Below are positions 22,126-56,159 of a DNA stretch of 56,159 nucleotides, in pieces. Source of the DNA: an uncultured Methanobrevibacter sp. (GTDB taxonomy: Archaea > Methanobacteriota > Methanobacteria > Methanobacteriales > Methanobacteriaceae). Position numbers and translations under genes: made by a program. The stretch is from assembly GCF_902788255.1 (NCBI RefSeq), contig NZ_CADAJR010000009.1, positions 1 through 56,159 of the forward strand, read 5' to 3'. The first letter of the stretch is position 1. Every line of letters starts with the position of its first letter. The notes beneath the pieces are model-generated. The model searched no databases. It saw only the letters and a program-made list of their open reading frames with translations, and had not been told where the DNA came from.

Positions 22126-22147
22126 ATTATTCATGCCCTTTAAAATT

Positions 22148-22191
22148 AAAAAAAAGTAGTGAGAGTTTATTAAAATTCTCATCCACTACTT
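22148..22191 (-). terminator. Terminator or attenuator just before the 1,311-residue ALP
   Basis: On the minus strand AAGTAGTG and CACTACTT close a long hairpin (22154-22191) that runs into eight T residues (22148-22155). Only about 20 bases separate it from the next start codon. It ends the upstream 807-residue gene and leaves no room for a separate promoter after it. Confidence 0.65.
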
Positions 22192-22256
22192 ATAATATTG
22201 TTTATTAAAATTCAAAGCTCCTAGGAATAAAAAAATCACTGAGAAGACTATTTATT

Positions 22257-34200: not shown

Positions 34201-37200
34201 ACCTGAAATTGTTAAGTTAAGATTGTCAGCACCAGTATAATTTCCTTCGTTTACATAGATGATGTCCTCATCTGCAGCATCGTTGATAGCTTCACGTAAT
34301 GAATCGAATTTATGACCGGTACTGTTGACAATGAAATTGCCTTCATAATCAGTGATTTTGAAGGTAGTTGTGTTCACTGCATCATTATAGTTTTCATCAC
34401 CTTCACGAACTGCAAATACAGTGTAGTTTCCTTCTCCAACACTTTCCAAGGTTATTTCACCATAACCATCGGTAATGTTGATAGTTAAAAACTTGTTATT
34501 GAATAGAAGATGGATGATTCCGTCTTGGCTTGCATTGACTTTTAAAACAGGTGCAGCCACTAATGCATCCCTAAGGACAATGTCCTCAACAGTAAGATTG
34601 ATGTATACATTTGCCTTATGGACGATGAGCCTGTCAATTACTGCTTCACCATAATAGATGTTGCCGTTGCTGTCATAAATGATTTCATTTAATATGACGT
34701 CATAAATGCCTTTTGGCATGACTCCTACATTATATTCAAATATGCCTTCTGTAATGTCGACTGTTGCATCAGTATGGTTGACAAATCCAGGTAAGACCAG
34801 TTGAAGATCCATGTTGAATTGAGGGTCAAGTGTACCGGTAATTATTACAGGGACGCCGTATTCACCATCAGGTATGTGCAATATCACATCATAGAAATCA
34901 AATACGTTTTTGCTGAATTGAATATCTCCAGCATTGTATATGTTTGCAAACTCGTCCGCAGCGTTAATTCCAAAGATGGATTCTGTAAGTTTTAAAGTTT
35001 TGTTGTTATATATAGCTCCACCTTTGCCGTTTGCGGTATTGGCAACGAATGTTGAATTATTAACGATAGCAATATTATTATTGTAAATAGCACCACCGTC
35101 ATTTTCTGCATAGTCTCCTGTGAATGTTGAATTAAAGACTTCTAATTCATTTTCATTGTATATTGCTCCACCGTATCCGTTTGCAGTGTTGTCTTCAAAA
35201 GTGGAGTTGATAACTTGTAATATTCCTGTACTGTAAACTGCTCCACCATTAATACCTTCATTTTCACGGAAAACACTGTCTTTAATATTTAATGAGCCAG
35301 AGCTGTATATTGCACCACCATTTCCATAATTAATGTTTTCTGTGAAATTAGTGGAGATAACGTCTGCATTTCCATTGTTGAATATTACGGAATTAGCATT
35401 AATGATATTTCCTGCAAATACGGTTGAATCAACGGATAATTCTCCTTCATTTAAAACAATTGCATTGTTGATTACATTGTCGGAAAATTCACAGCCAGAT
35501 ATGTTTAAGAAACCAGCATTGTATATGATTGCTTCGGTTTCAAAATCAGTGAAAATACAGTTTTTAAATGTTAAATTACCGTTATTTTCAAATGCCGCAT
35601 TGGTTTTTATGCTTCCATCAGTAAAGTTTATGCCTTCAAACACAACATTGCATCCTTCAGCCACTGTAAAGAACCAGTTTGTACTGTTTCCATCGAAAAT
35701 AACAATACGGTCTCTGAAATTTTTAAGAGTGAAGGATTTTCTGATTTCAATTTCCATATTCTCTTCAATATGGTAATTATGATTTGCATAAATAATGCCA
35801 TTTTCCGCAACAGCATCAATAGCATCGGTTAAGTTTTCATACACTTCATCCTCTGATATGATGAAATTTGCATTTATCATTTCAAATTTATATCCAAAGA
35901 GATATGTATTGAAGTTATGGTCATTCATTAGTCCTACGGTATAGTTACCTCCCAATACTTCTTCAAAAGTGATGTAGAAATTGAAGGATCCGTTATTGTA
36001 CATTGTGTATAGAGGGGCTTGATCGAAGTACATTAAAATCACTGAATCAAATGAATCTGTGGCTGTACCGTTAATTGTGACTGTCTGGTTGATTTTATCA
36101 ATAATAACGTTGTATATTTCACCAGTACCATTGAAAACACAATATTGGGCAGTTATTTCCTCAATTTCAGGGCCTGCAAAGTAATTCATCTTACGGTTTT
36201 CCCCTTCTCCCTGGAAGTTATCTAAAAATGTACAGAATCCAAATGTTGCTGATGAATATTGTTCGAGATCGGCCTCAATATAGATTGCTCCACCTTCTTC
36301 ACCTGCAAAATTGTCTATAAATGTACAGTTTAGTGCAATGAGGGTTGCATCCTGGTCTGAATTCATTGAACCAATGCATATTGCTCCACCGTAATCCTCA
36401 GCAGTGTTATTGTAGAAATTACAGTTGGTCATGGTCAAGGTACCTGCAACCAGTTCAATAGCTCCACCTTCACTGTTGTATCCATTGATTACTGTAATGT
36501 TTTCAAGTGTAATGGTAGGACCTTCTGTATTATATGGAACTGGAATAGGAGGAACTGTCTCAATCCACTCTACTTCAGTATCATATGTTAAATGTAGGAA
36601 GTAATCTTCTCCTTCACAGTCGAAAATAACCTCTTCATCTCCATAAGCTCTGATTGTTATTTCCAATTCTCCTTCAATATCAATTCCGCAGAATCCATAT
36701 CCCTTATATGTTCCGCCTCTAACTGTAATGATACCACCAAACAGTGAAGCTTCGTCGATTGCCTCTTCCAGAGTGTCGAAATATTGAGGGTCATCGTCAT
36801 CTTCATCCTCTTGGTAGATGAAGTTGCCAGTTTCTTCATAGTCATCGAAAAGGGAATCTTCATCACGAATAATATCATTATTTGTAGCAATAAGAAGATC
36901 ATTCTGGGAACTCATTTCAAGATTATTAAAGTTTTCTTCATTTATGATGATCTCATCAATTGGAGATTGACTACCTGATGATGAAGTCACAACTGATTGG
37001 CCTAAAACATTGTTGGTAGTGCCAAGTGATGCTCCATTGACTGTCAAGGTTGCCTCAACAGAACCTGACAGGTAGTTTACACGTTCCTGTGAAGTGACCT
37101 TGATTGTGTAAGTTCCAGGTGCAAATGTCTTATCCACATCAATGGACTTGCTGCCGTTGATTAATGTGATGAGTTTGTAATCACCAATTTCTATTGTGTA

Positions 37201-40200
37201 GATTGATGGAACATTTGTTTCAATGTTTACAGTAATGTTTTCGTCAGATCCAACTTCCACATCCGCTACAGATATGGTTGGATTGGCCTTTTTCACTTCA
37301 AAATCAATAATGGAATATGTGGATTCGAAAGCTTCGTCATTATATAATGCTACAAGAGTGTATTTTCCTGCATCTAATTTCAATGACTCAAGTTCTTCTT
37401 TTGTATAATATACTCCATTCAATTGGTAGGTTATTGTACCAATAGCATTTGCAGGTAGTGTTTCAGTGACTTTTATGGTTTCACCATATGTGATATTGTC
37501 AACGGAAACATTCAAATCAAAGCTTGCACTGTTGACTTTGAACATTTTAGTAATGCTGTCCATATGATATGCATTTTCATTGTAATCTAAAATACCGTTT
37601 AAAACAGCATGATATTTGCCCGGATTCAATATGTCTGTATTATAGGTGAATGCATTGTCTTTGATTTCCACAGTGACGTTTTCACCAGCGACTGTTAAAT
37701 TGGCTGCAGCATAGATATTAGCACCAATATCTGCTGTACCGCTGATTATTGAGCTTTCACCGTATTTAACATTCAATGCTTTTAATTCAACATTTTTAAC
37801 ATCAAAAATAGTATCATGAGCTACGGTAAATCCATTGCTGTAAATATTTCTGTATTCACCGGTGTTATTTGCAAGAACACAACCGTCAATGAATGCTGTA
37901 ACTTTAGGAGATGTTGCAATAGCTCCAATTTTTGCATCGTTGTTCATAATGAGACTGTTGTCAATAAATAACCTGAGCTTTTCATTATTAGGGTTTTTCA
38001 TTAAAATAACAGAACCCATTTTACCTTTATTGTTATTGAAAGTACAGGTGTCGATGTTTGCGTTTGAAATTCCGTCAAGGCATATGACTCCACCATTAAC
38101 CTCCTTGTTGGAGTTGCTTTCAAAGTTGGATGCGTCAATATTAAATGTTACTTCAGCATCGTTTGCATTAACATATATTACTCCACCTTCAAGTTCTGCA
38201 TCTTCGCCCATCTCATTTTTGATGTCGTTTTTATTGAAATTGGATAATGAGACACTCACGAATATGGAGTTATTGCCGACATATATTGCAGATCCTTTAA
38301 CGGCAGTGTTCTGTTCAAAGTCACATGAAGCAACTGCTGGTTCAATTTGAATTAAGTTTTGGATGTGCACTGCTCCACCTTCACGTGCAGTGTTATTAAT
38401 GAATTTGGAAGATGCTATTGAAACATCACTATAACCTAATGATGTGACTGCTGCAGTGCTTGCTTTTAACGGTGCGACATTGTTAATGAAACTACAATTA
38501 TCAATATCTAATGACTCTCCGTCACTGAATATTGCTGCTCCACCATTTTCAGCAAATGATGTCTTTGTAATCTTATTGTCTGTAAAGTTACATGAATTTA
38601 CTGTAAGATATCCGTGATTGACTATAGCTCCATAATTGGTGTTTCTGTTGTTGATTCCTCTGAAGGTTATTCCAGATATAGTGACTTCAGCGGTTTCCTG
38701 AACTATAATGAAATTGCCATCATGACCTTGAGCATCAAAGACTGCACCTTCCAATGCAATGAGGTCTAAAGTCTTATTGGATATTACAATACCTGTGTCT
38801 TTATAAATTCCGTTTTTAATGTAGATAGTATCATCTTCACCGGAATTTGCCACAGCTTCAGTTAATGTATCATATTCAACATTTGTGCTTAATACAAGGA
38901 AGTTGCTGTATGTTTTGCTTACTGTAAATGTTGTGAAATTCAATGCAAGAGTGAAGTTTTCATCACTACTGCGCATACCAATGGCAGTATAATTGCCTAA
39001 ATCAAGGCCAGTCAATTGTACGCTACCTTTACCGTCTACAACTTCAACCTGATATCTTGTGTTTCCAATGAAAATTGTGAAAGTTTTATCCCAATTTGCA
39101 TAAACATTTAAAACAGGTATTTCAGGCAGTAATACATTGTTTACTTCAAGTCTCATTAATATTTTAGCTTGTTCAATTAATATTTTTGCATATGGGTAAT
39201 TATCCAAATAGAATTGGTTTCCATTTGCATCAGGATAATAATTATGGTGATAGTAATAATCATTACTGTCCTCTTGGTTATACATTCCAGACATTTCTAA
39301 TTCATGTGATCCTCCAGGCAGTACTCCCAAACTCATATTAAATTTATTATCTACAATAGTAACTGCATCACCAAAAATATCTTCATCGTCGATAGTTCCT
39401 GATAAAAGGGTATAATTGTTATTCAAATTGGATCCCCAATCAAAAATACCATCAAAGATATATTCAACACCATAGACGCTGTCTTTTACATTTATTGTTA
39501 AGTTCAAATCAAATTCATTATCTTCTAAATTGACTTTTCTTGTGATTGATTCAGAGTATATGTTTCTGTAAGTGGTTGCAACATTGGTATCGAAAACACA
39601 TTCAGTAATATTTATGAGACTGTCTGCGAGGTCAGTTATATAAATAGCACCTCCAATTTCAGCAATATTTTCCATAAATAAGGTGTCATGAACCTCAAGA
39701 TTACTTGCATATATTGCTCCACCTTCACCAGTAGCCACATTAGTGGTAAATTCTGAACTGGTAATATTTAATTTTGAAGAGGAATCTGCATTGATTGCTC
39801 CACCATTAATACCCTGATTGGAATCGAAAGTACAATCATATATGTTTGCAATAGTGTTTTTCAAGAGTGTTTGGCCATTTGATTCAAAAGTAGATCCATA
39901 AAGTCCTAAATTTGAATTTTCAGCATTAATAGGAGTTCCAGGTCCATCTTCGAAATTGAAAGTGTTGTTAAATACACAATCTGTAATTGTACATTCCAAA
40001 GCAGTATTGAATTTTAATGCCGCATCTATAAATTTACCGATAACAGTTATATCTTCCATGTCTAGTTGCCCATTAGCCCCTACAGAAAACAAATAATTTT
40101 GAGCGTCTGATGAAAAAATGACATCTTCAGCTAATCCTGTAATATCTAATTTAGGGCTGATTGTAACATTTTTATTTACAATATCCACATTAAAATTATT

Positions 40201-41520
40201 ACTTCCAGTCCAGGTTCCGCCTTCAACAGCAATATCACCAGTTCCACCAAATGGAATCGCGTTTACTGCGTCTTTTAAAGTTTCAAATACTTTAACATCT
40301 TCACCCATAGTCAAGACAAAATTAGGTTCTACAATTGTAAAAGTATTTCCAGGATATGAGTATCTTTTTTCCCATTCTTTTGTCATGTAAACTGTATAAG
40401 TTCCAGCGTCCAAGTCATCGAAAGTTGCAGGATTGAGATTATCGCAAAGTAACCTTTTATACTCTTCACCATTTAAATATAAAACAGCATAGTTTACATC
40501 ATCCTCAACCTCAGGAGATATTGTCACTGATTTGGTTACACCCTCTACATCAATATCAAGGGAACCATGTCCTTTAAATCTACAATCATTAAACACCCAA
40601 CTTCCAGGATTGTCGCTACCGTGTTCATATCCAAAATCGTTTTCATCGTCACCTACTTTATTACCTTCAAAAGTACAATTATTAAGTTCAACACTACCTG
40701 TGTTCTCACAGGAGATAGCTCCACCAGCGGATTTTGCTTTATTATTTGTGAATTGACAATTGTTGGCTACAAATGTACCTCCCCCGTACACACTTACGGC
40801 TCCACCATAACGGTCTGCATAATTATCAGTCAGTATACAATAGTTCAATGTCAATTGTCCTTTAACTTCAAAAGCACCACCATCATATGATGCTTTTCCC
40901 TTTGTGAAAGATATGTGATTGAAAGTTAATTTGGCATTAGAACCAACAATATAGAGGTAGGTATTTATTTTCTCACCACTAAAAATAACCTGATCACCTT
41001 CAAAAGGTTGTATAGTTATTGTTGCTTTCTTGTCAAAATCAATTTCGATGTCTCCATCGCTGGTTGGATCATCATCCTCGGTGTATGTACCTGCCGAAAC
41101 TTTTATTGTTCCTACTGTACTGTCACTACTTGCAATAGCATTCATGGCAGTCATCAAATCTTCGTACCATTTATCTCCTTCTACCCAGTAAAAACAGTTT
41201 GTGTCGGCTTTAAGCACATCATCGTTTGAAGCAGAAAGCACTTCTCCTTTTGCATTAGAAGCTGCTTTCACCTCTTTCTGTTTCGATACTTCATATTGAG
41301 TATCACTTGCACTAATTTCTTCAACGTCATTGACACTTTCACTCTGATAAACTGGAGTGGAATTGTCTTCTTGCTCATAAGCAATTGACGTCATTTCAAT
41401 ATCTGTATCGCTAACATCCTCAAGCAATGTTTCATTTGTATCAGCCGCTGAAATTGCACCAATACTCATGATCATTACAAGAGATATAATCAGCAATACC
41501 CCCATCTTATTTATCTTCAT
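31240..41520 (-). CDS. Giant adhesin-like protein (about 3,426 residues)
   Basis: Start at ATG 41520, with GAGGT nine bases upstream. Signal peptide MGVLLIISLVMIMSIGAISA. Six cassettes each open with the pattern F/Y-x-x-L-x-x-A-(I/V) followed by a glycine-containing IYV..G.Y strand (for example VFETLKDAVNAI, YFDTLEEAIDEA, KFDSLREAINDA) and continue as beta-helix turns (GGAIYxx, NSTFxxN). Ig-like domains lie in the middle (about 1,360-1,520) and in a row near the end (about 2,560-3,060), followed by two lysine-rich C-terminal domains. Near residue 1,540 (nt about 36,800-36,960) an acidic stretch (DDYEETGNFIYQEDEDDDD) looks like the mature N-terminus of another ALP, so the gene may be a fusion of two. 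A TetR-type site lies 35 nt upstream of the start. Confidence 0.85.
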   Translation of the reverse strand: MKINKMGVLLIISLVMIMSIGAISAADTNETLLEDVSDTDIEMTSIAYEQEDNSTPVYQSESVNDVEEISASDTQYEVSKQKEVKAASNAKGEVLSASNDDVLKADTNCFYWVEGDKWYEDLMTAMNAIASSDSTVGTIKVSAGTYTEDDDPTSDGDIEIDFDKKATITIQPFEGDQVIFSGEKINTYLYIVGSNAKLTFNHISFTKGKASYDGGAFEVKGQLTLNYCILTDNYADRYGGAVSVYGGGTFVANNCQFTNNKAKSAGGAISCENTGSVELNNCTFEGNKVGDDENDFGYEHGSDNPGSWVFNDCRFKGHGSLDIDVEGVTKSVTISPEVEDDVNYAVLYLNGEEYKRLLCDNLNPATFDDLDAGTYTVYMTKEWEKRYSYPGNTFTIVEPNFVLTMGEDVKVFETLKDAVNAIPFGGTGDIAVEGGTWTGSNNFNVDIVNKNVTISPKLDITGLAEDVIFSSDAQNYLFSVGANGQLDMEDITVIGKFIDAALKFNTALECTITDCVFNNTFNFEDGPGTPINAENSNLGLYGSTFESNGQTLLKNTIANIYDCTFDSNQGINGGAINADSSSKLNITSSEFTTNVATGEGGAIYASNLEVHDTLFMENIAEIGGAIYITDLADSLINITECVFDTNVATTYRNIYSESITRKVNLEDNEFDLNLTINVKDSVYGVEYIFDGIFDWGSNLNNNYTLLSGTIDDEDIFGDAVTIVDNKFNMSLGVLPGGSHELEMSGMYNQEDSNDYYYHHNYYPDANGNQFYLDNYPYAKILIEQAKILMRLEVNNVLLPEIPVLNVYANWDKTFTIFIGNTRYQVEVVDGKGSVQLTGLDLGNYTAIGMRSSDENFTLALNFTTFTVSKTYSNFLVLSTNVEYDTLTEAVANSGEDDTIYIKNGIYKDTGIVISNKTLDLIALEGAVFDAQGHDGNFIIVQETAEVTISGITFRGINNRNTNYGAIVNHGYLTVNSCNFTDNKITKTSFAENGGAAIFSDGESLDIDNCSFINNVAPLKASTAAVTSLGYSDVSIASSKFINNTAREGGAVHIQNLIQIEPAVASCDFEQNTAVKGSAIYVGNNSIFVSVSLSNFNKNDIKNEMGEDAELEGGVIYVNANDAEVTFNIDASNFESNSNKEVNGGVICLDGISNANIDTCTFNNNKGKMGSVILMKNPNNEKLRLFIDNSLIMNNDAKIGAIATSPKVTAFIDGCVLANNTGEYRNIYSNGFTVAHDTIFDVKNVELKALNVKYGESSIISGTADIGANIYAAANLTVAGENVTVEIKDNAFTYNTDILNPGKYHAVLNGILDYNENAYHMDSITKMFKVNSASFDLNVSVDNITYGETIKVTETLPANAIGTITYQLNGVYYTKEELESLKLDAGKYTLVALYNDEAFESTYSIIDFEVKKANPTISVADVEVGSDENITVNIETNVPSIYTIEIGDYKLITLINGSKSIDVDKTFAPGTYTIKVTSQERVNYLSGSVEATLTVNGASLGTTNNVLGQSVVTSSSGSQSPIDEIIINEENFNNLEMSSQNDLLIATNNDIIRDEDSLFDDYEETGNFIYQEDEDDDDPQYFDTLEEAIDEASLFGGIITVRGGTYKGYGFCGIDIEGELEITIRAYGDEEVIFDCEGEDYFLHLTYDTEVEWIETVPPIPVPYNTEGPTITLENITVINGYNSEGGAIELVAGTLTMTNCNFYNNTAEDYGGAICIGSMNSDQDATLIALNCTFIDNFAGEEGGAIYIEADLEQYSSATFGFCTFLDNFQGEGENRKMNYFAGPEIEEITAQYCVFNGTGEIYNVIIDKINQTVTINGTATDSFDSVILMYFDQAPLYTMYNNGSFNFYITFEEVLGGNYTVGLMNDHNFNTYLFGYKFEMINANFIISEDEVYENLTDAIDAVAENGIIYANHNYHIEENMEIEIRKSFTLKNFRDRIVIFDGNSTNWFFTVAEGCNVVFEGINFTDGSIKTNAAFENNGNLTFKNCIFTDFETEAIIYNAGFLNISGCEFSDNVINNAIVLNEGELSVDSTVFAGNIINANSVIFNNGNADVISTNFTENINYGNGGAIYSSGSLNIKDSVFRENEGINGGAVYSTGILQVINSTFEDNTANGYGGAIYNENELEVFNSTFTGDYAENDGGAIYNNNIAIVNNSTFVANTANGKGGAIYNNKTLKLTESIFGINAADEFANIYNAGDIQFSKNVFDFYDVILHIPDGEYGVPVIITGTLDPQFNMDLQLVLPGFVNHTDATVDITEGIFEYNVGVMPKGIYDVILNEIIYDSNGNIYYGEAVIDRLIVHKANVYINLTVEDIVLRDALVAAPVLKVNASQDGIIHLLFNNKFLTINITDGYGEITLESVGEGNYTVFAVREGDENYNDAVNTTTFKITDYEGNFIVNSTGHKFDSLREAINDAADEDIIYVNEGNYTGADNLNLTISGKKLTIAPLGVVVFDANSTELYFLTIDETSDVTLEDIVITGFNTDDSVIDNLGNLTVNGCTFVNNNLCEKLIGSYGNLTIVESEFYDNVLSAYLIYVASSGNLIVNESTFENNTVDNVGNLISIDFANSAKIISNEFVDNMVSGNIISVNLCNDALINSVFANNTQGNNVISADRNSNLLVENSVFTDNELSNIIFSTNNNQTISGCTFVDNTVENVVYSEDNNLSVLGSTFTANTLSGNGALNIQSNVSATVDGCVFTDNNADSYRNIYSVSSDVKITNTVFDAINVDFTVNDIDYGQNETIEGTIDIGTNLNFTVNLKVDSKTYSVNVTDNKFTHKLTRPSAGDHTVVLNTEDSNSNSYIFDKITKIFTVNQIEQLLNVTIKDINYGEKLNVTIIANKPNNVVFELNGKTYTNETLQNLILAAGDYLIVAKSSGDKNYLPATAFVHVKVHKAVPNITVSNVSVKYGEEIKVDVSVSIPDYYTVFIGDKSVSLYVNDKATFTFNGTDFKPDTHEIRAYVFETDNYTEASANATLTVNKSDAFFRLSNVVIGYGENATITVTAPVNASGNITYTIRDSEGNLVLNITQSCLEDLVVPNLKLGTYTVTGTYSGDDYYTKESRVNSSTITVIRGEPTIEIDLGNITGNTPEITVRLPVDATGNVTLLVNGQVIQVVNVTNGSAVVKVRDLKPGNNTVTVVYSGDGNYTQANKSVVIKSNASIISSDMTRGYNSGLDYTANLYDAGGSPLANTNVAIKVGTTTYTVKTDANGVLKFNKKLAVGNYGVVIINPVTGEYKLNNLKIVKRITGNKNVNIFFADGSKYKVRIVGDDGKYVGAGQVVKMRVAGKNYFVKTDKKGYATLKLRLSAKTYNIAVSYKGFATKNKVKVKSVVKPVKKTVKVKKTAKKLKIKVKLKGKKVLKKKKVYMKFKGKTYKAKTNSKGIATFKVPKKVIKKLKKGKKYTAKFTYKVKANGKTLKNIAKCKVYVRR

Positions 41521-41554
41521 TTTCAAAATACCTCGTATTTAAATAAAGTATATG

Positions 41555-47071: not shown

Positions 47072-48850
47072 ATGAGTCGTATATCAATTTTAGATAAAGA
47101 CAGATGTCAGCCTAAAAAATGTGACTACGTCTGCATTCATTACTGTCCGGGTGTCAGAATGGAAGAGGACACCATAGTAATCGATGAGGATACAAAAAAA
47201 CCGCTGATATCTGAAGAGTTATGTGAAGGGTGCGGTATCTGTACAAACCGATGCCCGTTTGATGCTATTACAATCATCAACCTGCCAGAAGCGGCAGGCG
47301 AACCGATTCACAGGTTTGGCCAGAACCAGTTTGAACTGTTCGGACTTCCATCCCTTGAAGAGGGCAGCGTACTGGGACTTCTCGGACCGAACGGTATCGG
47401 TAAATCCACAATCATGAACATATTGTCAGGAAGTCTGATTCCAAACTTCGGAGACTATGAAAACAGGCCAGAAAACTGGGATGCAGTCATTGACTACTAC
47501 AAGGGATCATCCCTACAAAAATACTTTACAGACCTGTCCGAAGGCAACATCAAAACAATCCTGAAACCGCAGATGGTAGACAAGCTTCCGAAAGTCGTGA
47601 AAGGTAAAGTAAGGGATTTGCTTGAAAACGTTAACGAAAGGGACAAGCTCGACTATGTCACCACAGAACTGCAGCTTGAAAACGTTCTTGACAGAAAAAT
47701 GGAAAACCTGAGTGGTGGAGAACTTCAAAGGGTTGCAATAGCTGCAACTGTACTTAGGGAAGGCGATTTCTACTACTTTGACGAACCGACATCCTGGCTG
47801 GACGTATCCCAGAGACTGAATGCAGTCAAGGTAATCCGTTCCCTTGCAGATGAGGGAAAAAGCGTACTTGTAATCGAGCACGACCTCGCTACACTTGATG
47901 CACTTTCAGACAACATTCACATCCTGTACGGTACTCCAGGAGGATACGGTGTAGTGTCCGGTAAGAAGGGAGTTCGTCTGGGAATCAACGCTTACATAAA
48001 CGGATTTTTAGCTGAAGAAAATGTCAGAATCAGAAGAAATCCAATTGAGTTTACAATAAGACCGCCAACCCCTGAGGATGAAGGGGATTCACTTGCAAGC
48101 TACAGCGATTTAAGCAAGGAATACGACGGTTTCACACTGACCGCCGACGAAGGTGAAATATTCTATGATGAAATCGTGACCGCATTCGGGTCAAACGGTA
48201 TCGGTAAGACCACATTCGCCAAAATGCTTGCAGGCGTTGAGGAGCCAACAAGCGGAGAAGTTGATGAAGAGGTTACAATAGCATACAAACCACAATACAT
48301 CGTTTCAAACTTCGAAGGAACTGTCCGTGACTTTTTATACATGAACGCACCAAGTTTCGGATCCAAAATCTTTGAAAGTGAAATAATGAAACCGTTGACA
48401 TTGGAGGAAATGCTTGACAAACCTGTAAAAGGTTTGAGTGGTGGAGAACTTCAAAGACTGGCAATTGCCGCAACATTATCCAAAGATGCCGAAATCTATC
48501 TTTTCGACGAACCTACCGCATTTCTGGATGTTGAGCAAAGGCTGATTGCCGCAAGGGTGATACGTAAACTTGTTGAAAGCAGAAACGCAGCTTCACTTAT
48601 TGTTGACCACGATATCGTATTTATCGACTACATTTCAGACAGGGCGATGGTGTTCAACGGAACTCCTGGTCTGAACGGTCATGCCTCAAAGCCTACTGAT
48701 TTGAGAAATGCAATGAACGAATTTTTAGGCAATTTAAACATTACATTCAGAAGGGATAAGGAAACCAAAAGGCCAAGAGTCAACAAGCTTGACAGTTACA
48801 AAGACCGTGAACAGAAAGAAAAAGGAGAATATTATTACCTATCCGATTAA
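47072..48850 (+). CDS. abce1: Ribosome recycling factor ABCE1 (Rli1)
   Basis: Splits ribosomes after termination using two ATPase domains and an Fe-S domain. 592 residues, normal length. The Fe-S part has [15 protein letters not shown] and [16 protein letters not shown]. The first nucleotide-binding domain has GPNGIGKST and [12 protein letters not shown], with [13 protein letters not shown]; the second has [10 protein letters not shown] (Ser instead of the usual Pro), [12 protein letters not shown] and [22 protein letters not shown] precedes ATG. Downstream lies the hairpin-rich region. Confidence 0.95.
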
Positions 48851-48870
48851 ATTTTCTACCTATCACCATT

Positions 48871-49090
48871 AATTAAAAAGAGTTATTAAAGAGAGGAGGA
48901 AACTTTAATAACTCAACAACTTAAATAATCATCATTAATTAACTGATCAATTTAATATACAAATCCAAAAAAAATATTGTCAAGATAGAGAGTAAATAGC
49001 TTTAACAGCTATTTACACTAGTTATATGACCTAATTTATATTTGAGGTACGGACATATAAAATTATCAAATGAGGCGAATTTGATAATCT
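48871..49090 (-). ncRNA. Candidate small RNA with CCUCC-type loops
   Basis: Read on the minus strand: a promoter-like element (49104-49146) that is a near copy of the one before the SecB-like gene, then hairpin 49062-49088 (loop TCGCCTC), a weaker ATATG/CATAT stem holding TACCTC, hairpin 48992-49016 (10-bp stem), and hairpin 48881-48913 with an 11-bp stem AGTTATTAAAG/CTTTAATAACT and loop TTTCCTCCTCT, followed directly by CTTTTTAATT. The last part has the form of an intrinsic terminator. No protein frame explains the stretch. The CCTCCT loop equals the anti-Shine-Dalgarno of 16S rRNA, so the RNA could mask ribosome binding sites. Transcription is inferred. Confidence 0.45.
48992..49016. repeat. 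Hairpin repeat, copy 1
   Basis: GTAAATAGCT/AGCTATTTAC with a five-base loop; the stem GTAAATAGC/GCTATTTAC is the same as in copy 2 at 49779-49805. Confidence 0.6.
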
Positions 49091-49103
49091 ATACTATACT
49101 AAC

Positions 49104-49146
49104 TAGTAATAACCATATAAATGTTATTAATATATTACTCTTTAAA
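49104..49146 (-). promoter_or_regulatory. Promoter-like element A, copy 1
   Basis: 37 of 43 bases agree with 52871-52913, the promoter region of the SecB/Fdh-like operon. It has TTTATATGG as TATA box on the minus strand, flanked by AGTAATA and TATTACT arms. No protein gene lies downstream, only the hairpin series that ends at 48871. Confidence 0.55.
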
Positions 49147-49417
49147 ATAAGCTTTAAATTAAAATATACTAATTAAATTCCATTTACTGGACAAAATATG
49201 AATATAACTTTAAATTATAGAAAAAATAACATCTATACAATCTTCGTTTAAAAAAGATAATAATGATTAAAATTATTAAAATTACCTTGAATTAAAAAAT
49301 AATGGAATATACTGGGCAAATTATTAAAAAAATTGTTTATGAACCCCAATTAATATAATCCCATCAATTCCTTTATTTTGACAAATATTACTACTCCAAA
49401 ATATTAAAATAAAAAAT

Positions 49418-49444
49418 GTAATACTTTTTATCAAAATAATACTA
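49418..49444. promoter_or_regulatory. Element B, copy 1
   Basis: GTAATAC, then TTTTTATC, then AATAATACTA; 26 of 27 bases equal the copy at 53185-53211. The arms are inverted (GTAATAC against AATACTA) and enclose a TATA-like core. Confidence 0.5.
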
Positions 49445-49465
49445 TCGTAAATAATATTTTATTAT

Positions 49466-49545
49466 AAAAAATTATTAAAAAATGGAATAGCTATTAAAAA
49501 TCTGAGGAGTCGATTGCTTTAATAGCTATTGTAGACAGTGAAAGA
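49466..49545 (-). ncRNA. Candidate single-hairpin small RNA with CUCCUC loop
   Basis: AATAGCTATTAAA and TTTAATAGCTATT (49486-49530) form a perfect 13-bp stem. On the minus strand the 19-base loop contains GACTCCTCAG and the hairpin is followed by CCATTTTTTAATAATTTTTT. A TATA-like ATTATATATAGG lies about 20-30 bases upstream (about 49548-49560). The form is that of a very small RNA with a terminator stem. Transcription is inferred. Confidence 0.4.
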
Positions 49546-49778
49546 AACCTATATATAATTATACAAATCTCTCTTTATTTATTAATTACTTTACATTGAT
49601 GGAGAAAATAAGTAATATCAATTGGTTATGCCAACAACTGACATTACTTGGCTAATGATGAATTTTATCAACATAAAGATAATTAATTGAAAAACAATCA
49701 AAATATTCTCTATTTTAACTATTTTTCTAGCATTAGTGAGAAACCCACTAATATTAGAAAGACAGCTAAAGACATGAG

Positions 49779-49805
49779 TGTAAATAGCCAAAATAGCTAT
49801 TTACA
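49779..49805 (-). terminator. Hairpin after the mvhD-like gene (repeat copy 2)
   Basis: TGTAAATAGC/GCTATTTACA with a seven-base loop, about 35 bases after the stop. It may end the operon. It shares its stem with the hairpin at 48992-49016. Confidence 0.45.
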
Positions 49806-49838
49806 ATCATTATCATATGGCTTGACTATTTTAAACTC

Positions 49839-50243
49839 TTAATCTAATTCTAATGGCCCTAATTTTGAGAGGGTCTTATGGAATTCCTCCATGGTTCTTT
49901 GAAACTTCTCACCTTCAGATGCTGAAATCCATTCATGACGGAACCTTTCCTTTTCAATTCCAAATTCCTCAAGAATGTCCTCAACAATTTTTGATCTTCT
50001 TGACCATTTGTAGTTACCCGCATCATAATGACAGTCACCAATATGGCATCCTCCTACAAATACACCATCAGCACCCTCCTGAAATGCCTTAAATATCATT
50101 GAAGGATTAATTCTTCCTGAACACATCACACGTATGATTCTGATGTTTGGGGAATATTGCATACGAGCAGTTCCTGCAGTATCCGCACCACCATAACAAC
50201 ACCAATTACATAATAAACCTACAATTTTTAAATCATCAGACAT
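49839..50243 (-). CDS. mvhD: MvhD-like iron-sulfur electron-transfer subunit
   Basis: 134 residues from ATG 50243; GAGGTGAT, overlapping the stop of the FdhB-like gene, fits this start. MvhD carries a [2Fe-2S] cluster and links hydrogenase or formate dehydrogenase to heterodisulfide reductase. Visible family marks: [47 protein letters not shown] and the C-terminal LGPL. Last gene of a four-gene operon with FdhA- and FdhB-like subunits but no hydrogenase genes nearby, so it is likely a paralog (FlpD-type) working with them, not the Mvh subunit itself. Confidence 0.8.
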
Positions 50244-50252
50244 CAAATCACC

Positions 50253-51392
50253 TCATAACTCTGTTTTTTCTGGACTGTACAATGGAGGTTTGATATCATC
50301 TGAAACTCCAGCTACATAACCAGTTCTATCATAGTACTTTTTCTGCAATTTATCAAAGATCAATGAAACAGGAATATCCATTGGACATACATCATCACAT
50401 TGGCCACAGTCTATACAACTGAAACTCATGTGTGACAATCTAACCCCCTGGAAAGCGATTGGTGTTGGAGGAATGTTTGTTTCATCCTTGAAGTAAGGTT
50501 TATCCAATTCGCAGTTTTCAAAGCACCAGCATATCGGGCAAACATCGCGACATGCATAACAGCTAATGCAACGGTTCCATTCAGTCATTTCACTGACTGT
50601 TGGATAAGTTGCTTCTTGATTCTTTTTAGCCATTTTAATCATGATGTTTTCAACCTTGGATCTTCCTTCCACGGCAGCATCATTAGGAGATTTGGTTTCA
50701 AGAACCCCTGCTTTTTTAGCACCATCTATTAGTTCCTGACCTTTTTCATCATTTATTTCAATGAATGTCCATCCATCTTCAGCGCCCCAATTCCCACAGG
50801 CAATATTTGCTTTTCTTGGGATTTTAACATCACACCTTTGGCAGTTGGTACGGCGTCCATATCCTTTCTCTTCAAGGTCATGGATTTTCACCGCTTCTTC
50901 TGAACCGTCAGCAAGTTCAATGATGAATTGGCCCTTGTCAATTTCTTCACTTATAACCTCATCAGGATTGGCTTCATAGAAAAGGTCAATCATTTCTCTT
51001 CCGCTGACTGGTGACACTGTTCCTCCACAGTTTAAACCAATCATATAAATGTTGTCCCTATTGATTTTATGCCGGGTTATTAGTTCTTCAACTGCCCTCA
51101 TATCACATGGCTTGACTGTGAATGCAACTTTCTTATCAATGAAATATTTCTGGACAAGGTCCCCAATCATTGTTGGAGCACAATGATAAGATCCAGCAGT
51201 TTTTATTAAATCTTGTGAATCGGTGATGAAAACTGGAAACGCATCATAAACATCATCTTGAGGACTTAATGCTAAAACGCCATCAACTAAACCTTCATCA
51301 AGTAAGTACTTAAGAATACTGGTTACAGCTCCCCCACATTCTCCTGCTTCAAGAATTTCACTATCTTGAGATTTTGCTAAAACATAACTCAT
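50253..51392 (-). CDS. FdhB/FrhB-like F420-binding iron-sulfur subunit
   Basis: 379 residues. The FdhB/FrhB family holds FAD and [4Fe-4S] clusters and exchanges electrons with coenzyme F420. The N-terminal GECGGAVTSILKYLLDEGLVDG, AGSYHCAPT and KPCDMRAVEELI, then IGLNCGGTVSP and RTNCQRCD, are typical. Two ferredoxin motifs follow near the C-terminus: CISCYACRDVCPICWC and CIDCGQCDDVCPMD. GGGGAGA precedes ATG. It lies between FdhA-like and MvhD-like genes with gaps of 10 and 6 nt, so they surely form one complex or pathway. True formate dehydrogenase activity is doubtful because the alpha partner is shortened. Confidence 0.85.
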   Translation of the reverse strand: MSYVLAKSQDSEILEAGECGGAVTSILKYLLDEGLVDGVLALSPQDDVYDAFPVFITDSQDLIKTAGSYHCAPTMIGDLVQKYFIDKKVAFTVKPCDMRAVEELITRHKINRDNIYMIGLNCGGTVSPVSGREMIDLFYEANPDEVISEEIDKGQFIIELADGSEEAVKIHDLEEKGYGRRTNCQRCDVKIPRKANIACGNWGAEDGWTFIEINDEKGQELIDGAKKAGVLETKSPNDAAVEGRSKVENIMIKMAKKNQEATYPTVSEMTEWNRCISCYACRDVCPICWCFENCELDKPYFKDETNIPPTPIAFQGVRLSHMSFSCIDCGQCDDVCPMDIPVSLIFDKLQKKYYDRTGYVAGVSDDIKPPLYSPEKTEL

Positions 51393-51402
51393 ATTATCTC
51401 CC

Positions 51403-52416
51403 CTATTTGTTTAACTCCCCAATAACTTCAATAATGCTTAAGTTATCTGATTCAACTGCTACATTGAAATTTTGCTCTTCACCCATTGCATTAACAAAAG
51501 ATCCGTCTTGCTCTAACCATGATTTTATAGGAACAATAATGTCTGCAATTTTTGTAGTGTCATTTTCACAGCAGGCAAAACTGATGATTTTAGAGAGTTT
51601 AGTAAAGTCATACTCGAACTCATCAACGACATCGTCATTGAAAACCAATAGTAATTTTGTTTCATCGAACAACTCTACCATTTCATCACTGGACTTTGAA
51701 TCAATAATATTCAATGCACCTTTTGTATTAGCCTTACTGAAAACAGGTAAAATTTTACAGGCCAATGACTCCAATTTATCCAAATCATCTGCCCCATCAA
51801 CATAATTAAACACTACCACTGAAGATTCGTCGATTTCTGCCATAAAATTATCTAAAAATTCCTGAACTGATGAAGTGGATGTTTCATCAGCAATGTTGAA
51901 TGTGACTGCATTTTCATTTTTACTCAATGCATATATTTTTGCATCATTTTGTTTCGCATGAACAATTCTTCTTCCAATCAACGGATTTTCATACAGCAAA
52001 TCACCTATTACAAATACCTTGCCGGCACCTGCAATCTCATCATATGATGCAACATCATCAAAATTCTTTAGGTCATTTGCATAAAAACCTATATTAAAAC
52101 CATTGGATTCAGCGAACTGTTTGATCGCTTCAATTTCTTCAACTGTACTGTTTCCGGAACAAATTACAGATACTTCTGATGAACTGCAAGATTTGATTTC
52201 ATTTATAGCTTCTGCCATTGCTTTGTCAATGTCAATATCTTCAAATTTGCTTTTAAAACAGTCTATAGAATTTCTTCCATTTAAACAGTTTTTACCCGCA
52301 TTGACAGGATGTCTTTTATAAGGGAATGTCCCAACAATTTCTTTACCATCTAAAATCACATTTATACCACAACCAACACTACATGAAGGGCATAACGTGT
52401 GTTTAATTTCAAACAT
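51403..52416 (-). CDS. Short FdhA-like molybdopterin-family subunit without catalytic half
   Basis: 337 residues; normal FdhA has about 690. The start keeps the [4Fe-4S] site (CPSCSVGCGI, then NCLNGR), and the middle keeps the GAGKVFVIGDLLYENPLIG type of fold and the end DIIVPIKSWLEQDGSFVNAMG, typical of the MopB first half. The part bearing the catalytic Cys/Sec and the second pterin-binding half is missing, with no sign of truncation in the gene, since the operon continues normally. It is probably an electron-carrying scaffold. It resembles the formate-dehydrogenase-like FlpA proteins described next to hmd in Methanothermobacter; that comparison is from memory. Confidence 0.7.
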   Translation of the reverse strand: MFEIKHTLCPSCSVGCGINVILDGKEIVGTFPYKRHPVNAGKNCLNGRNSIDCFKSKFEDIDIDKAMAEAINEIKSCSSSEVSVICSGNSTVEEIEAIKQFAESNGFNIGFYANDLKNFDDVASYDEIAGAGKVFVIGDLLYENPLIGRRIVHAKQNDAKIYALSKNENAVTFNIADETSTSSVQEFLDNFMAEIDESSVVVFNYVDGADDLDKLESLACKILPVFSKANTKGALNIIDSKSSDEMVELFDETKLLLVFNDDVVDEFEYDFTKLSKIISFACCENDTTKIADIIVPIKSWLEQDGSFVNAMGEEQNFNVAVESDNLSIIEVIGELNK

Positions 52417-52433
52417 AATACATCACCAAAATT

Positions 52434-52802
52434 TTAAAAAGTAGCATTCAGATTTACAGTAGAATTAACATCATCGGTTAATAGCTCATAATTTGATTGT
52501 CGGGTTAATGTAATCATGTTCATCAGCATTGTGCATGCATGATGGAAAACAATTTGAGAACACTCCTTCTGCAGGAATTCTTCAAAAATTTCTAACCTAA
52601 TTAAACCCTCAACCTTAAAGTTTAAATTCAAATATTCACTGGATCTTAAAACTATATTGTAGTTTACATCCCTTTGATCAGTGTTTATATATTCAACTGA
52701 CCAATCAATATCCAAATTTAAATTAGCATTCTTGAGATTGTAATTTTCCCGAATCATGGCTATTTTCTCTACAGTAATTTCCACACTACTCTCTCCAATC
52801 AT
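52434..52802 (-). CDS. SecB-fold-like small protein
   Basis: 122 residues. The pattern YNIVLRSSEYLNLNFKVEGLIRL (strands), EEFLQKECSQIVFHHACTMLMNMITLTRQSNYELL (helix with conserved spacing) and the terminal VNSTVNLNATF is like the SecB chaperone fold, of which methanogen members are known. Two starts are possible: ATG 52802, or GTG 52784 with GGAGAG just before it. It is the first gene of the operon with Fdh-like and MvhD-like subunits, spaced 17 nt from the next. It may help assemble those iron-sulfur proteins. The family assignment is a resemblance only. Confidence 0.45.
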   Translation of the reverse strand: MIGESSVEITVEKIAMIRENYNLKNANLNLDIDWSVEYINTDQRDVNYNIVLRSSEYLNLNFKVEGLIRLEIFEEFLQKECSQIVFHHACTMLMNMITLTRQSNYELLTDDVNSTVNLNATF

Positions 52803-52870
52803 TATTAATGATAATCTCCAAATTATTTAACTTAAAAAAAAATTAATTAAATAATCTATATAATACTGAA

Positions 52871-52913
52871 TAGTAATAACCATATAAAGATTATTAAAGT
52901 ATTACTCCCTAAA
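52871..52913 (-). promoter_or_regulatory. Promoter element A, copy 2
   Basis: TATA box CTTTATATGG on the minus strand, about 80 bases before the first start codon. TAGTAATA and AGTATTACT arms flank it. This copy has a protein-coding operon behind it and so identifies element A as a promoter. Confidence 0.65.
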
Positions 52914-53184
52914 TTGGAAGTTTAAAGAGAAAATAATATAAATTAACATCATATTATCGAAATAAAGAAGGATTAGTTTATAATTTAGTAAAACACTGAT
53001 TATCCACAATTTATCAGGAAAAAATAATAATTGGAAAAATCGTTCAAATGCAATAAAAATTTAAAAAAAGAAATAAAAAATTTATTTGAATAAAATGAAC
53101 GGATACTAAAAATGGATTTTTAAAAATAATGAATTTACTTAAATTTAAAAGTAAAAATATAATTAAAGTATGCTGAAAAAAATA

Positions 53185-53211
53185 GTAATACTTTTTATAA
53201 AAATAATACTA
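53185..53211. promoter_or_regulatory. Element B, copy 2
   Basis: GTAATAC, TTTTTATA, then AATAATACTA; one base different from the copy at 49418-49444. It lies just after the stop of hmdC. Confidence 0.5.
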
Positions 53212-53244: not shown

Positions 53245-54741
53245 CTAAACAATAGTTAATGCATTAGGCACCTTCTTCAAAATGTTATCCCTGACAGGAA
53301 TCATTGTTGATGAAGCAATTGAAAAGTCCGCATTATCTGCAGCTGCCTTATCATCAGTCTCAGCAATGATTGTGGCATCCAAAGCACTTTGAAGATTGTC
53401 AACAGTATTTTTCAATACCCAATCGTCTACATCTGAAATTATAATTTCATCAACATGCTTATCCAATTCATTTGCAATCACCCATGAAATAAACCTTCCT
53501 CCATGCAATGCAATAACATTCCCGTCAGCCAAATTCACAATATCCTCTAAAGTATGTCTTAACTCAATATTTTGATACATTCTTGAATTGACCAAAGTTG
53601 CCCAATGGGCATCACCAACATGATATGAACCGATTTTTCTAGGATATACATAATCCGGTCCCGCAATCTTAACCGCTGTTGCCAATGACAATAAATCTTG
53701 CTTCTGGACTGGAAGACCTCTGTTTGGAAATTCCTCATTAATGATTTGTATGATTCTTGGAAGACCGAATTTTCCCCTTCTTGCAGTGCCAGGCTCATAG
53801 CCACACATGTATCCATGATGATTTTTTGGAAATCCTGTGATTACCATGTTCAATCCAGATCTCAAACCTGCCCTGACTTCATGCTCATAAGCTCCATTAG
53901 TGGCAACAACCTTACCTGGAGACAATATTCTTGCAGCTGCAATTGTTTTTGCAAATGCCTCAGTGGTGTTTTCGCACCTGTTGAATGGACCTCCTTCAAC
54001 AACTATGACATCTGCACCTATCTCAATTGATTTTTCAAATCCTGTAATCACCTCATCATATCCATCACCAACAAACATGATTGATTCCAATCCCCTACCA
54101 TACTTTTTGGCAAGGTCTGCTATGTCCTTGGCTTCCCTTAATGGGGCAGCATGACCGTCACTGGTCTGTTCTGAGGTTACATTGACAGCAACTGATGATG
54201 ACAGTTTGATCCATTCTTCCTTATCGTCCTTTTCGGCAAGTTCCTTATCGATCAACCTTTCATGAATCCTTCCACGTGGGCATTCTGTAAATGCAGGACC
54301 CTTGTTATAACATTCACCACCACATCCACTGATATATTTAGGGAGTCTCATCGCCCCGTTTTCACCGAAATGATCCAAATCAAGGGGAACATCAACTATT
54401 TCATGAACTTTCTGCATCACCTCAACGCCTCTCATGCCGAATTTTTCGGCAATGTCTGAAAAGGCATATGCACAGATATGAATAGGTGCTCCAATCATGT
54501 CGGCCAGTCGGCAATTGCCCAGCAATTCTTTTAGTTCCAAATCGGATGCACAGGTTCCTGCAACCACCTCCGTCAAATCACATCCCAGAGGGAATCTTTT
54601 GAATTGCATTCCCAAACGCATTGTCTCTTCCAGGGAAAGCTCTGAGATTGCATCAACAACAGTGGTTACATCCTTATCCATTTTTGATATTTCAATTGCT
54701 GATTCATCATCAAAAACTGCTTTTTTTATTAAGTCATACAT
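53245..54741 (-). CDS. hmdC: FeGP cofactor biosynthesis protein HmdC (HcgG)
   Basis: HmdC/HcgG is needed to make the iron-guanylylpyridinol cofactor of Hmd. ATG 54741 is preferred over 54756 because GGAG (54751-54754) is nine bases before it; this gives 498 residues, the usual length. Family stretches: FPLGCDLTEVVAGTCASDLE, VPLDLDHFGENGAMRLPKYI, SGCGGECYNKGPAFTECPRG (several conserved Cys), FVGDGYDEVITGFEKSIEIG, NGAYEHEVRAGLRSGLNMVI and KIGSYHVGDAHWATLV. It is divergent from hmd across a 430-base control region with a TTTAGG palindrome 69-84 bases from its start. The other cofactor genes (hcgA-F) are not in the window. Confidence 0.88.
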   Translation of the reverse strand: MYDLIKKAVFDDESAIEISKMDKDVTTVVDAISELSLEETMRLGMQFKRFPLGCDLTEVVAGTCASDLELKELLGNCRLADMIGAPIHICAYAFSDIAEKFGMRGVEVMQKVHEIVDVPLDLDHFGENGAMRLPKYISGCGGECYNKGPAFTECPRGRIHERLIDKELAEKDDKEEWIKLSSSVAVNVTSEQTSDGHAAPLREAKDIADLAKKYGRGLESIMFVGDGYDEVITGFEKSIEIGADVIVVEGGPFNRCENTTEAFAKTIAAARILSPGKVVATNGAYEHEVRAGLRSGLNMVITGFPKNHHGYMCGYEPGTARRGKFGLPRIIQIINEEFPNRGLPVQKQDLLSLATAVKIAGPDYVYPRKIGSYHVGDAHWATLVNSRMYQNIELRHTLEDIVNLADGNVIALHGGRFISWVIANELDKHVDEIIISDVDDWVLKNTVDNLQSALDATIIAETDDKAAADNADFSIASSTMIPVRDNILKKVPNALTIV

Positions 54742-54809
54742 GAAAATCTGCTCCATTTATGTTATATATATTATATTTTTCAGTAAAATCTTTAATAAAT
54801 AAGTTTCGA

Positions 54810-55175: not shown

Positions 55176-56159
55176 ATGAAAGTAGCAATTTTAGGTGCAG
55201 GATGTTACAGAACTCATGCTGCAAGTGGAATTACCAACTTCTCAAGAGCTTGTGAAGTTGCAGAAGCAACCGGAAAAGAAAACATCTCAATGACTCACTC
55301 AACCATCGAAATGGGTGCAGAATTATTAGAATTAGCCGGAGTAGATGAAGTAGTAGTATCCGACCCAGTATTTGACGGTGAATTCACTGTAGTAGATGAC
55401 TTTGATTACGCAGAAGTTATGGCAGCTCACAAAGCAGGAAACCCAGAAGAAGTAATGCCAGCAATCAGAGCAAAAGTTGCTGAATTAGCTGAAACTGTAC
55501 CAAAACCAGAAAAAGGTGCAATTCACTTCACTCACCCTGAAGACTTAGGTATGAAATGTACCACCGATGACCGTGAAGCTGTTGCTGACGCTGACTGGGT
55601 TATGACCTGGTTACCAGAAGGAGGTATGCAACCTGCTATCATCGAAAAATTCGCTGACGCTATTAAACCTGGTGCAATCGTAACTCACGCATGTACCATT
55701 CCAACCACTGGATTAAACAAAATCTTCGAAGACTTAGGAACTGACGTTAACGTAGCTTCCTACCACCCTGGTGCAGTACCAGAAATGAAAGGACAAGTTT
55801 ACATTGCTGAAGGTTTCGCAGACCAAGCTTCCATCGACACCTTAATGGACTTAGGTCAAAAAGCAAGAGGATCCGCATTCACATTACCAGCTAACATGGT
55901 TGGTCCTGTATGTGACATGTGTTCCGCAGTAACCGCTATTACCTACGCAGGTATCTTAGCTTACAGAGACACCGTTACTCAAATTTTAGGCGCTCCTGCT
56001 GGATTTGCACAAATGATGGCTAACGAAGCTTTAACCCAAGTTACCGCATTAATGCAAAACGAAGGTATCGACAAAATGGACGATGCTTTAAACCCAGCTG
56101 CATTATTAGGTACTGCTGACTCAATGAACTTCGGTTCCTTAGCAGAAATCGTACCTACC
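55176..56159 (+). CDS. hmd: H2-forming methylene-H4MPT dehydrogenase (Hmd, [Fe]-hydrogenase), 3' end cut
   Basis: Uses H2 to reduce methenyl- to methylene-tetrahydromethanopterin with the nickel-free FeGP cofactor; it replaces the F420-dependent step when nickel is scarce. 328 residues are visible before the window ends, of about 345. The start MKVAILGAGCYRTHAASGI is canonical; the iron-ligand Cys lies in THACTIPTTG, followed by SYHPGAVPEMKGQVYIAEGF and GPVCDMCSAVTAITYAGILA. Codon use (GGT, GCT, ACC) suggests high expression. A second in-frame ATG at 55119, with an equally good AAGGAG, would add 19 residues (MILSKLKERFNNDSKGDKK) not known to me from other Hmd proteins. Divergent from hmdC. 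Confidence 0.93.
   Translation, partial: MKVAILGAGCYRTHAASGITNFSRACEVAEATGKENISMTHSTIEMGAELLELAGVDEVVVSDPVFDGEFTVVDDFDYAEVMAAHKAGNPEEVMPAIRAKVAELAETVPKPEKGAIHFTHPEDLGMKCTTDDREAVADADWVMTWLPEGGMQPAIIEKFADAIKPGAIVTHACTIPTTGLNKIFEDLGTDVNVASYHPGAVPEMKGQVYIAEGFADQASIDTLMDLGQKARGSAFTLPANMVGPVCDMCSAVTAITYAGILAYRDTVTQILGAPAGFAQMMANEALTQVTALMQNEGIDKMDDALNPAALLGTADSMNFGSLAEIVPT

Follow-up and report, generated by a model that had tools for sequence, protein, structure and literature searches.

Two paralogous RNAs at the Elp-Hmd locus of Methanobrevibacter: candidate nickel-sparing antisense regulators of both [NiFe]-hydrogenases

Rumen and gut methanogens make much of livestock methane. Small RNAs of the RyhB type shut off dispensable metal-using enzymes when the metal, iron, is scarce. 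In the case of OxyS and fhlA, two segments of one RNA contact the Shine-Dalgarno (SD) region and the early coding sequence of a single message. The closest described archaeal systems are sRNA154 and sRNA41 of Methanosarcina mazei, which act in trans from intergenic regions and have structured loops (PMC5867862). Loop 2 of sRNA154 carries an anti-ribosome-binding-site sequence that blocks translation of glnA2 under nutrient limitation, and sRNA41 masks ribosome-binding sites in polycistronic messages (PMC5867862).

The replacement of both nickel hydrogenases at low nickel was shown only in 2025, in other genera (Nomura 2025, PMC12350162). In nickel-limited M. marburgensis, Mvh is replaced by Elp, and Frh is replaced by Hmd together with Mtd. 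At low nickel the MvhAGD and FrhAGB proteins are nearly gone and MvhB persists; the transcription of mvh had earlier been reported not to fall under nickel limitation (PMC12350162). This physiology comes from Methanothermobacter and Methanothermococcus, not from Methanobrevibacter (PMC12350162). According to a 2026 survey, the truncated FdhA of Methanobacteriota has a part in methanogenesis when nickel is limiting (PMC13135261). The words 'sRNA' and 'antisense' are absent from Nomura 2025 (PMC12350162), and a search of one literature collection returned no sRNA tied to mvhA, to a hydrogenase mRNA or to nickel limitation.

Here we describe two RNAs, designated RNA A and RNA B, in a 56,159-nt stretch of DNA from an uncultured Methanobrevibacter sp. 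(contig NZ_CADAJR010000009.1; hereafter the window). We put at about three in four the probability that they are paralogous trans-acting nickel-sparing antisense RNAs which reinforce the switch to Hmd and Elp. The locus holds the same genes as the pathway described in 2025 (ElpX-A-B-C, Hmd and HcgG), and the enzymes concerned are the same two [NiFe]-hydrogenases that are lost there (PMC12350162). Compared by description, RNA A and RNA B resemble sRNA154 and sRNA41 in being intergenic archaeal RNAs with structured loops and a predicted action in trans, although genus, nutrient and targets differ (PMC5867862). Unlike the M. mazei RNAs, they form a paralogous pair whose putative targets are replaced by the operon to which they are linked, and RNA A has a predicted contact of 22 bp within the end of a coding region. 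The metal-sparing logic is that of the RyhB-type RNAs, but the metal is nickel rather than iron, the organism is an archaeon and the sequence is unrelated. The two-site contact of RNA B with frhA is like that of OxyS with fhlA; RNA, organism and regulon are unrelated, and the kissing interaction is here a prediction.

The operon next to RNA B lies on the minus strand and comprises elpX (52434..52802, 122 aa), elpA (51403..52416, a truncated molybdopterin FdhA-like protein of 337 aa), elpB (50253..51392, FrhB/FdhB-like) and elpC (49839..50246, MvhD-like with an FlpD domain), the last three recognised by NCBIfam/Pfam. Because gene order and families match the cluster of Nomura 2025 (PMC12350162), we assign the operon as elpXABC, whose nickel-free product stands in for the [NiFe]-hydrogenase Mvh when nickel is limiting; this supersedes the label of Fdh-like operon given to it originally. 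The gene taken at first to be SecB-like is elpX by position, and its product has no Pfam or NCBIfam match. The neighbouring genes are hmdC/hcgG (53245..54756, minus strand; TIGR03958, 8e-216), for biosynthesis of the FeGP cofactor of Hmd, and the [Fe]-hydrogenase gene hmd (55176..56159, plus strand; TIGR01723, 4.3e-173), which is truncated by the contig end. Together hmd, hmdC and elpXABC are the nickel-free hydrogen pathway locus of Methanobrevibacter. Elsewhere in the window, a very long minus-strand ORF (31240-41526, 3428 aa) is probably one of the adhesin-like proteins mentioned in the original prediction. There is no tRNA or tmRNA in the window.

A 43-base element upstream of elpX (52871-52913) reappears on the minus strand at 49104-49146 with 37 of 43 bases identical, and a pattern derived from it hits only these two places in the window (0.00 expected from shuffles). 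A search of the whole genome with the 296-nt stretch gave, besides the stretch itself, only the elp promoter (81% over 81 nt) and a single short, weak match. Within the copy, which would serve as promoter and operator of RNA B, a palindrome, TAATAAC-N9-GTTATTA (49107-49129), with the outer half-site AGTAATA..TATTACT, spans the TATA box TTTATATGG (49113-49121). No protein gene follows: there is no ORF of at least 50 aa within 48850-49618, and the substitutions in aligned relatives track base pairing and indels rather than codons. The original prediction of a minus-strand non-coding RNA behind a promoter copied from the hydrogen-metabolism operon is supported by the sequence.

Conservation in the genus, the alignment and the folding place RNA B at about 48866..49093 of the minus strand, with an estimated length of about 215-225 nt and a predicted 5' end about 24 nt from the TATA box. 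The sequence signs of a discrete transcript are the TATA box, hairpins and U runs only. The predicted fold of the minus strand from 48865 to 49085 is more stable than those of dinucleotide shuffles (z = -3.8, 0/200). From the predicted 5' end, RNA B is formed of stem P1 (49062..49089, loop TCGCCTC), the stem-loop P2 seen in the alignment of relatives (49024..49058), stem P3 (GUAAAUAGCU..AGCUAUUUAC, 48992..49016), which has compensatory pairs, and a terminal hairpin (48881..48913, loop TTTCCTCCTCT / UUUCCUCCUCU) that runs into CTTTTT at 48880-48875. The RNA B stretch is matched in 52 of 67 genus genomes, many of the matches covering only the promoter part common with elpX. Alignment of the long matches reveals P1, P2, P3, P4, P5 and the terminal hairpin, and the covariation check that had been proposed shows the stems to covary in relatives. 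The RNA B of the window has lost P4 and P5, and it keeps P1, P2, P3, the terminal hairpin and the frhA complement; intact copies exist in relatives. In the RNA B of relatives (for example L012:1643-1760) alternative folds of the P4/P5 region are possible: the 3' arm of P4 has two potential partners, its 5' arm and a segment further downstream (CUUUAAUUAUC).

The P3-P4 core of RNA B recurs immediately 3' of elpC, on the minus strand at about 49484..49811. No promoter of its own was seen for this paralogue, RNA A, and it is probably processed from the elp transcript. Its consensus pairs form P3 (49780..49804), P4 (49714..49770), which is also found in the complete RNA B of relatives and is absent from that of the window, and a closing helix (49584..49684, pairing 49667-49684 with 49584-49600). 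The closing helix encloses an inner hairpin, GUAAUGUC..GAUAUUAC, which was seen by eye (49612-49647). A terminal hairpin (49486..49530) has the loop CUCCUC in one clade only, and the U run behind it varies. This loop was considered as the main determinant and rejected, being present in only about half of the RNA A rows. In an alignment of 27 species there are 66 consensus pairs, 12 of them changed on both sides, with compensatory and G.U changes. The sense strand folds better than the antisense strand in 27/27 species (mean -92 versus -69 kcal/mol), and the RNA strand is therefore the minus strand. Conservation covers about 300 nt of RNA A, is far above that of RNA B, and is not confined to a terminal hairpin and U run as it would be in an intrinsic terminator or 3'-UTR element. 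In the core common to both RNAs 97.1% of cells are paired and 11 pairs have double changes; no shuffle equalled it on any measure (0/500), and it passed all shuffle and slide controls.

In many genomes nt 301-328 of RNA A have a second blastn match, on the opposite strand of mvhA. The block concerned, GGUUUCUUUCACUGUCUACAAUAGCUA (49523..49549, minus strand), matches mvhA at 93% in the own genome and many relatives, and its site comprises codons I-V-D-S-E-G-N, about ten codons before the mvhA stop, after which mvhB follows. The first 22-23 nt of the 27-nt block pair with mvhA unbroken, with one G.U. The duplex has -51.3 kcal/mol (z -6.9, 0/500 dinucleotide shuffles), computed with mvhA of the relative G063 because the own mvhA, like mvhD, is cut by a contig end. 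The crossed controls are null (RNA A with frhA, z +1.5; RNA B with mvhA, z -0.2). Over about 40 species the block is nearly invariant, varies less than any other part of RNA A and has sharp ends. G006, a divergent case, carries another block, displaced upstream by several codons, which still pairs with the same mvhA end (24 bp, -31.9 kcal/mol). Some blocks have uncompensated mismatches (G003, G028, G020, G041 and G050). Synonymous change at the codons of the mvhA site is zero in the 21 species that have RNA A (gene mean 10.7%) and 7.8% in the 11 species without it by the blastn criterion, G006 included; this is a modest point because 8 of 209 mvhA windows are equally invariant, and mvhA is generally conserved at the nucleotide level.

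RNA A also carries UUUCUCC, and the segment UUUUCUCC (49601..49608, minus strand) is a candidate antisense to the SD region of mvhD (GGAGAAA), whose leader presents GAGGAGGAGAAA in a hairpin loop. Matching changes occur in G003, G028, G004, G019 and G049, and misfits in G062, G036 and G023. The energy of the RNA A-mvhD leader duplex is no better than that of shuffles, and for this reason the contact is left as suggestive only.

RNA B is complementary to frhA in the P2 loop with part of its 5' arm, and in the linker after P3. The segment ACCUCAAAUAUAAAUUAG (49031..49048, minus strand) is antisense to the frhA leader, whose SD is GAGGUG, and the linker with CUCUAUCUU (48977..48992, minus strand) is antisense to frhA codons 1-5 (UUGAAAGAUAGAGU). 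The match to the leader and SD is perfect over 18/18 nt in G063, 17/17 in G008 and 16/16 in G020, and that of the linker over 14/14 in G013. In the own genome the pairing is interrupted and has -31.1 kcal/mol (2/500 shuffles). Against shuffled leaders, z runs from -3.5 (own) through -3.6, -4.6 and -5.7 to -5.8 over the own genome, G037, G008, G020 and G063. On energy the pairings of G013 and G053 are not significant (z -1.5 and -1.6; 21/300 each), and G034 and G017 are weaker cases. Differences between species in the frhA leader are matched by differences in RNA B, and cognate pairs beat permuted ones (-29.35 versus -26.30 +/- 0.71; 0/20000) in a permutation in which the relatedness of the species remains. 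The order of the two segments forbids one continuous helix with frhA; therefore a two-contact kissing complex is the more likely geometry.

The anti-SD idea of the original prediction holds, in that such a segment exists; the loops and targets that it named do not. The CCTC of the P1 loop is not conserved (it is absent from G008, G013, G015, G043 and G053), and the CTCC of the terminal loop is clade-limited. The P2 loop, ACCUCAAU..AAAUUAG, is where the anti-SD segment is conserved; it had gone unmentioned, as had P2 as a whole (49024-49058), the paralogue RNA A and a distal operator at 49417-49444. The leaders of hmd and of the adhesin-like proteins are not indicated as targets, the match being to the frhA leader. 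Both matched messages, mvhA and frhA, encode [NiFe]-hydrogenase large subunits, as expected of metal-sparing targets. As in trans-encoded base-pairing sRNAs, there is no conserved ORF, the structure covaries and the complementarity is maintained across species, with the exceptions listed.

The RNAs look like nickel-scarcity off-switches, since they are complementary to the messages of both hydrogenases that their locus replaces. Under nickel shortage both the elp promoter and its copy would fire; the 3' end of the elp transcript would contain RNA A, and RNA B would arise from its own promoter. The P2 loop of RNA B would pair with the frhA SD and the leader upstream of it, and the segment after P3 with the first frhA codons, so blocking translation of the F420-reducing [NiFe]-hydrogenase (Frh). 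RNA A would pair over 22-23 nt with the last mvhA codons, at the boundary of mvhDGA and mvhB, with the ribosome-binding site of mvhD as a possible further contact; mvhDGA would be silenced or cut off and mvhB still be made. On balance we favour this particular form of the model, in which the pair has both [NiFe]-hydrogenases as targets in trans and divides the mvh operon such that MvhDGA is lost and MvhB kept. If true, RNA A and RNA B add a missing post-transcriptional step to the Elp-Hmd pathway, and a nickel-sparing RNA system rewires the central energy metabolism of gut methanogens. They would also be a candidate answer to how the hydrogenase proteins vanish while mvh transcription is reportedly unchanged. 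The antisense pair is a specific, testable mechanism in a group with few known sRNAs.

Other explanations account for part of these observations. P3, P4 and the closing helix are deeply conserved though unneeded for antisense pairing, as would be expected if the RNAs were protein-binding structured RNAs or 3'-UTR or terminator elements of elp, with incidental complementarity to mvhA and frhA. We regard this as unlikely given the 22-bp mvhA duplex (0/500), the perfect 14-18 nt at the frhA start, the joint variation of the frhA leader and RNA B, the shifted block of G006, and the fact that both matched enzymes are those replaced by the locus. The pairing is also symmetric, and RNA A meets mvhA in the last codons, a place at which a block of translation is not expected; the mvh and frh messages might thus act as sponges, or trigger decay of RNA A and RNA B, and so control elp. 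RNA B covers the ribosome-binding site and start of frhA, the classic geometry of a repressor, and we hold such a reversed direction to be quite improbable.

Slightly less credit still is due to the suggestion that RNA B is a duplicated promoter plus non-functional intergenic DNA: the decay of its P4 and P5 in the window fits, but P1, P2 and P3 persist, as do the terminal hairpin and the frhA complement, and the RNA B of relatives is intact. Least probable of all is that the blocks are functionless relics of an inverted duplication of mvhA and frhA pieces. Their identity to gene pieces does itself hint at copying; against this, no other part of RNA A varies so little over about 40 species, the block has sharp ends, and G006 has a shifted complement in its place.

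A model of the core (R1) matches 44 of 139 family genomes, all in the genus Methanobrevibacter, and none of those outside it. By blastn, RNA A is found in about 42 genus genomes: 40 of the 46 with ElpB and 2 of the 21 without. The ElpB-positive exceptions are G006, with its divergent RNA A, G009 and G047, which end at a contig end, G002 and G007, which have a second MvhB-like gene after elpC, and G056. RNA A occurs without detected ElpB in G031 and G042 (L277, L276), as does RNA B in G060 (L014) and G017 (L013); in G017 hmd lies about 2-3 kb from RNA B and the frhA leader is without the usual complement. An MvhB-like polyferredoxin gene directly follows elpC at L174, L175 and L186 (G007, G002 and G106). 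The antisense block was not found in G002 and G007, and no MvhA was found in G106; perhaps MvhB is supplied in these genomes from the elp operon instead of being spared in the mvh operon. In the tested genomes of four other genera (g3, g9, g12 and g15), a blastn comparison of the region 3' of elpC with the own mvh locus gave no comparable antisense. Rfam 15 has no match at the gathering score in the window and five relatives, and only chance-level matches at E<=10. The RNA family is new to Rfam.

The elpX and RNA B promoters have in common the palindrome that spans the TATA box and, about 310 bp away, a distal repeat. Upstream of RNA B this distal operator-like element is TAGTATTATTTTGATAAAAAGTATTACA (49417..49444, minus strand), and upstream of elpX the pair lies at 53184-53211 and 52871-52896 with identical spacing; G008 and G063 have the pair at equal spacing as well. 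The elpX leader opens with a hairpin resembling P1 of RNA B (52821-52856), and the two transcripts would therefore share a 5' structure. Elp goes up at low nickel in M. marburgensis (PMC12350162), and nickel would likewise control RNA A and RNA B. A NikR homologue also rises there at low nickel (PMC12350162), which makes it the leading candidate for the regulator acting on the operator pair. When up to 3 mismatches are allowed, the own genome has the pair at one further place, after a NikABC-like transporter operon. This place (L304:1186-1710; G000:C28, about 21996-22520) lies downstream of the transporter and of a GNAT gene, with truA following. It carries a P3-like hairpin, GTAAATAGCTATAAAATAGCTATTTAC, plus CTCTCCTCT, has a counterpart in G008 (L303), and is a candidate RNA C or truA leader.
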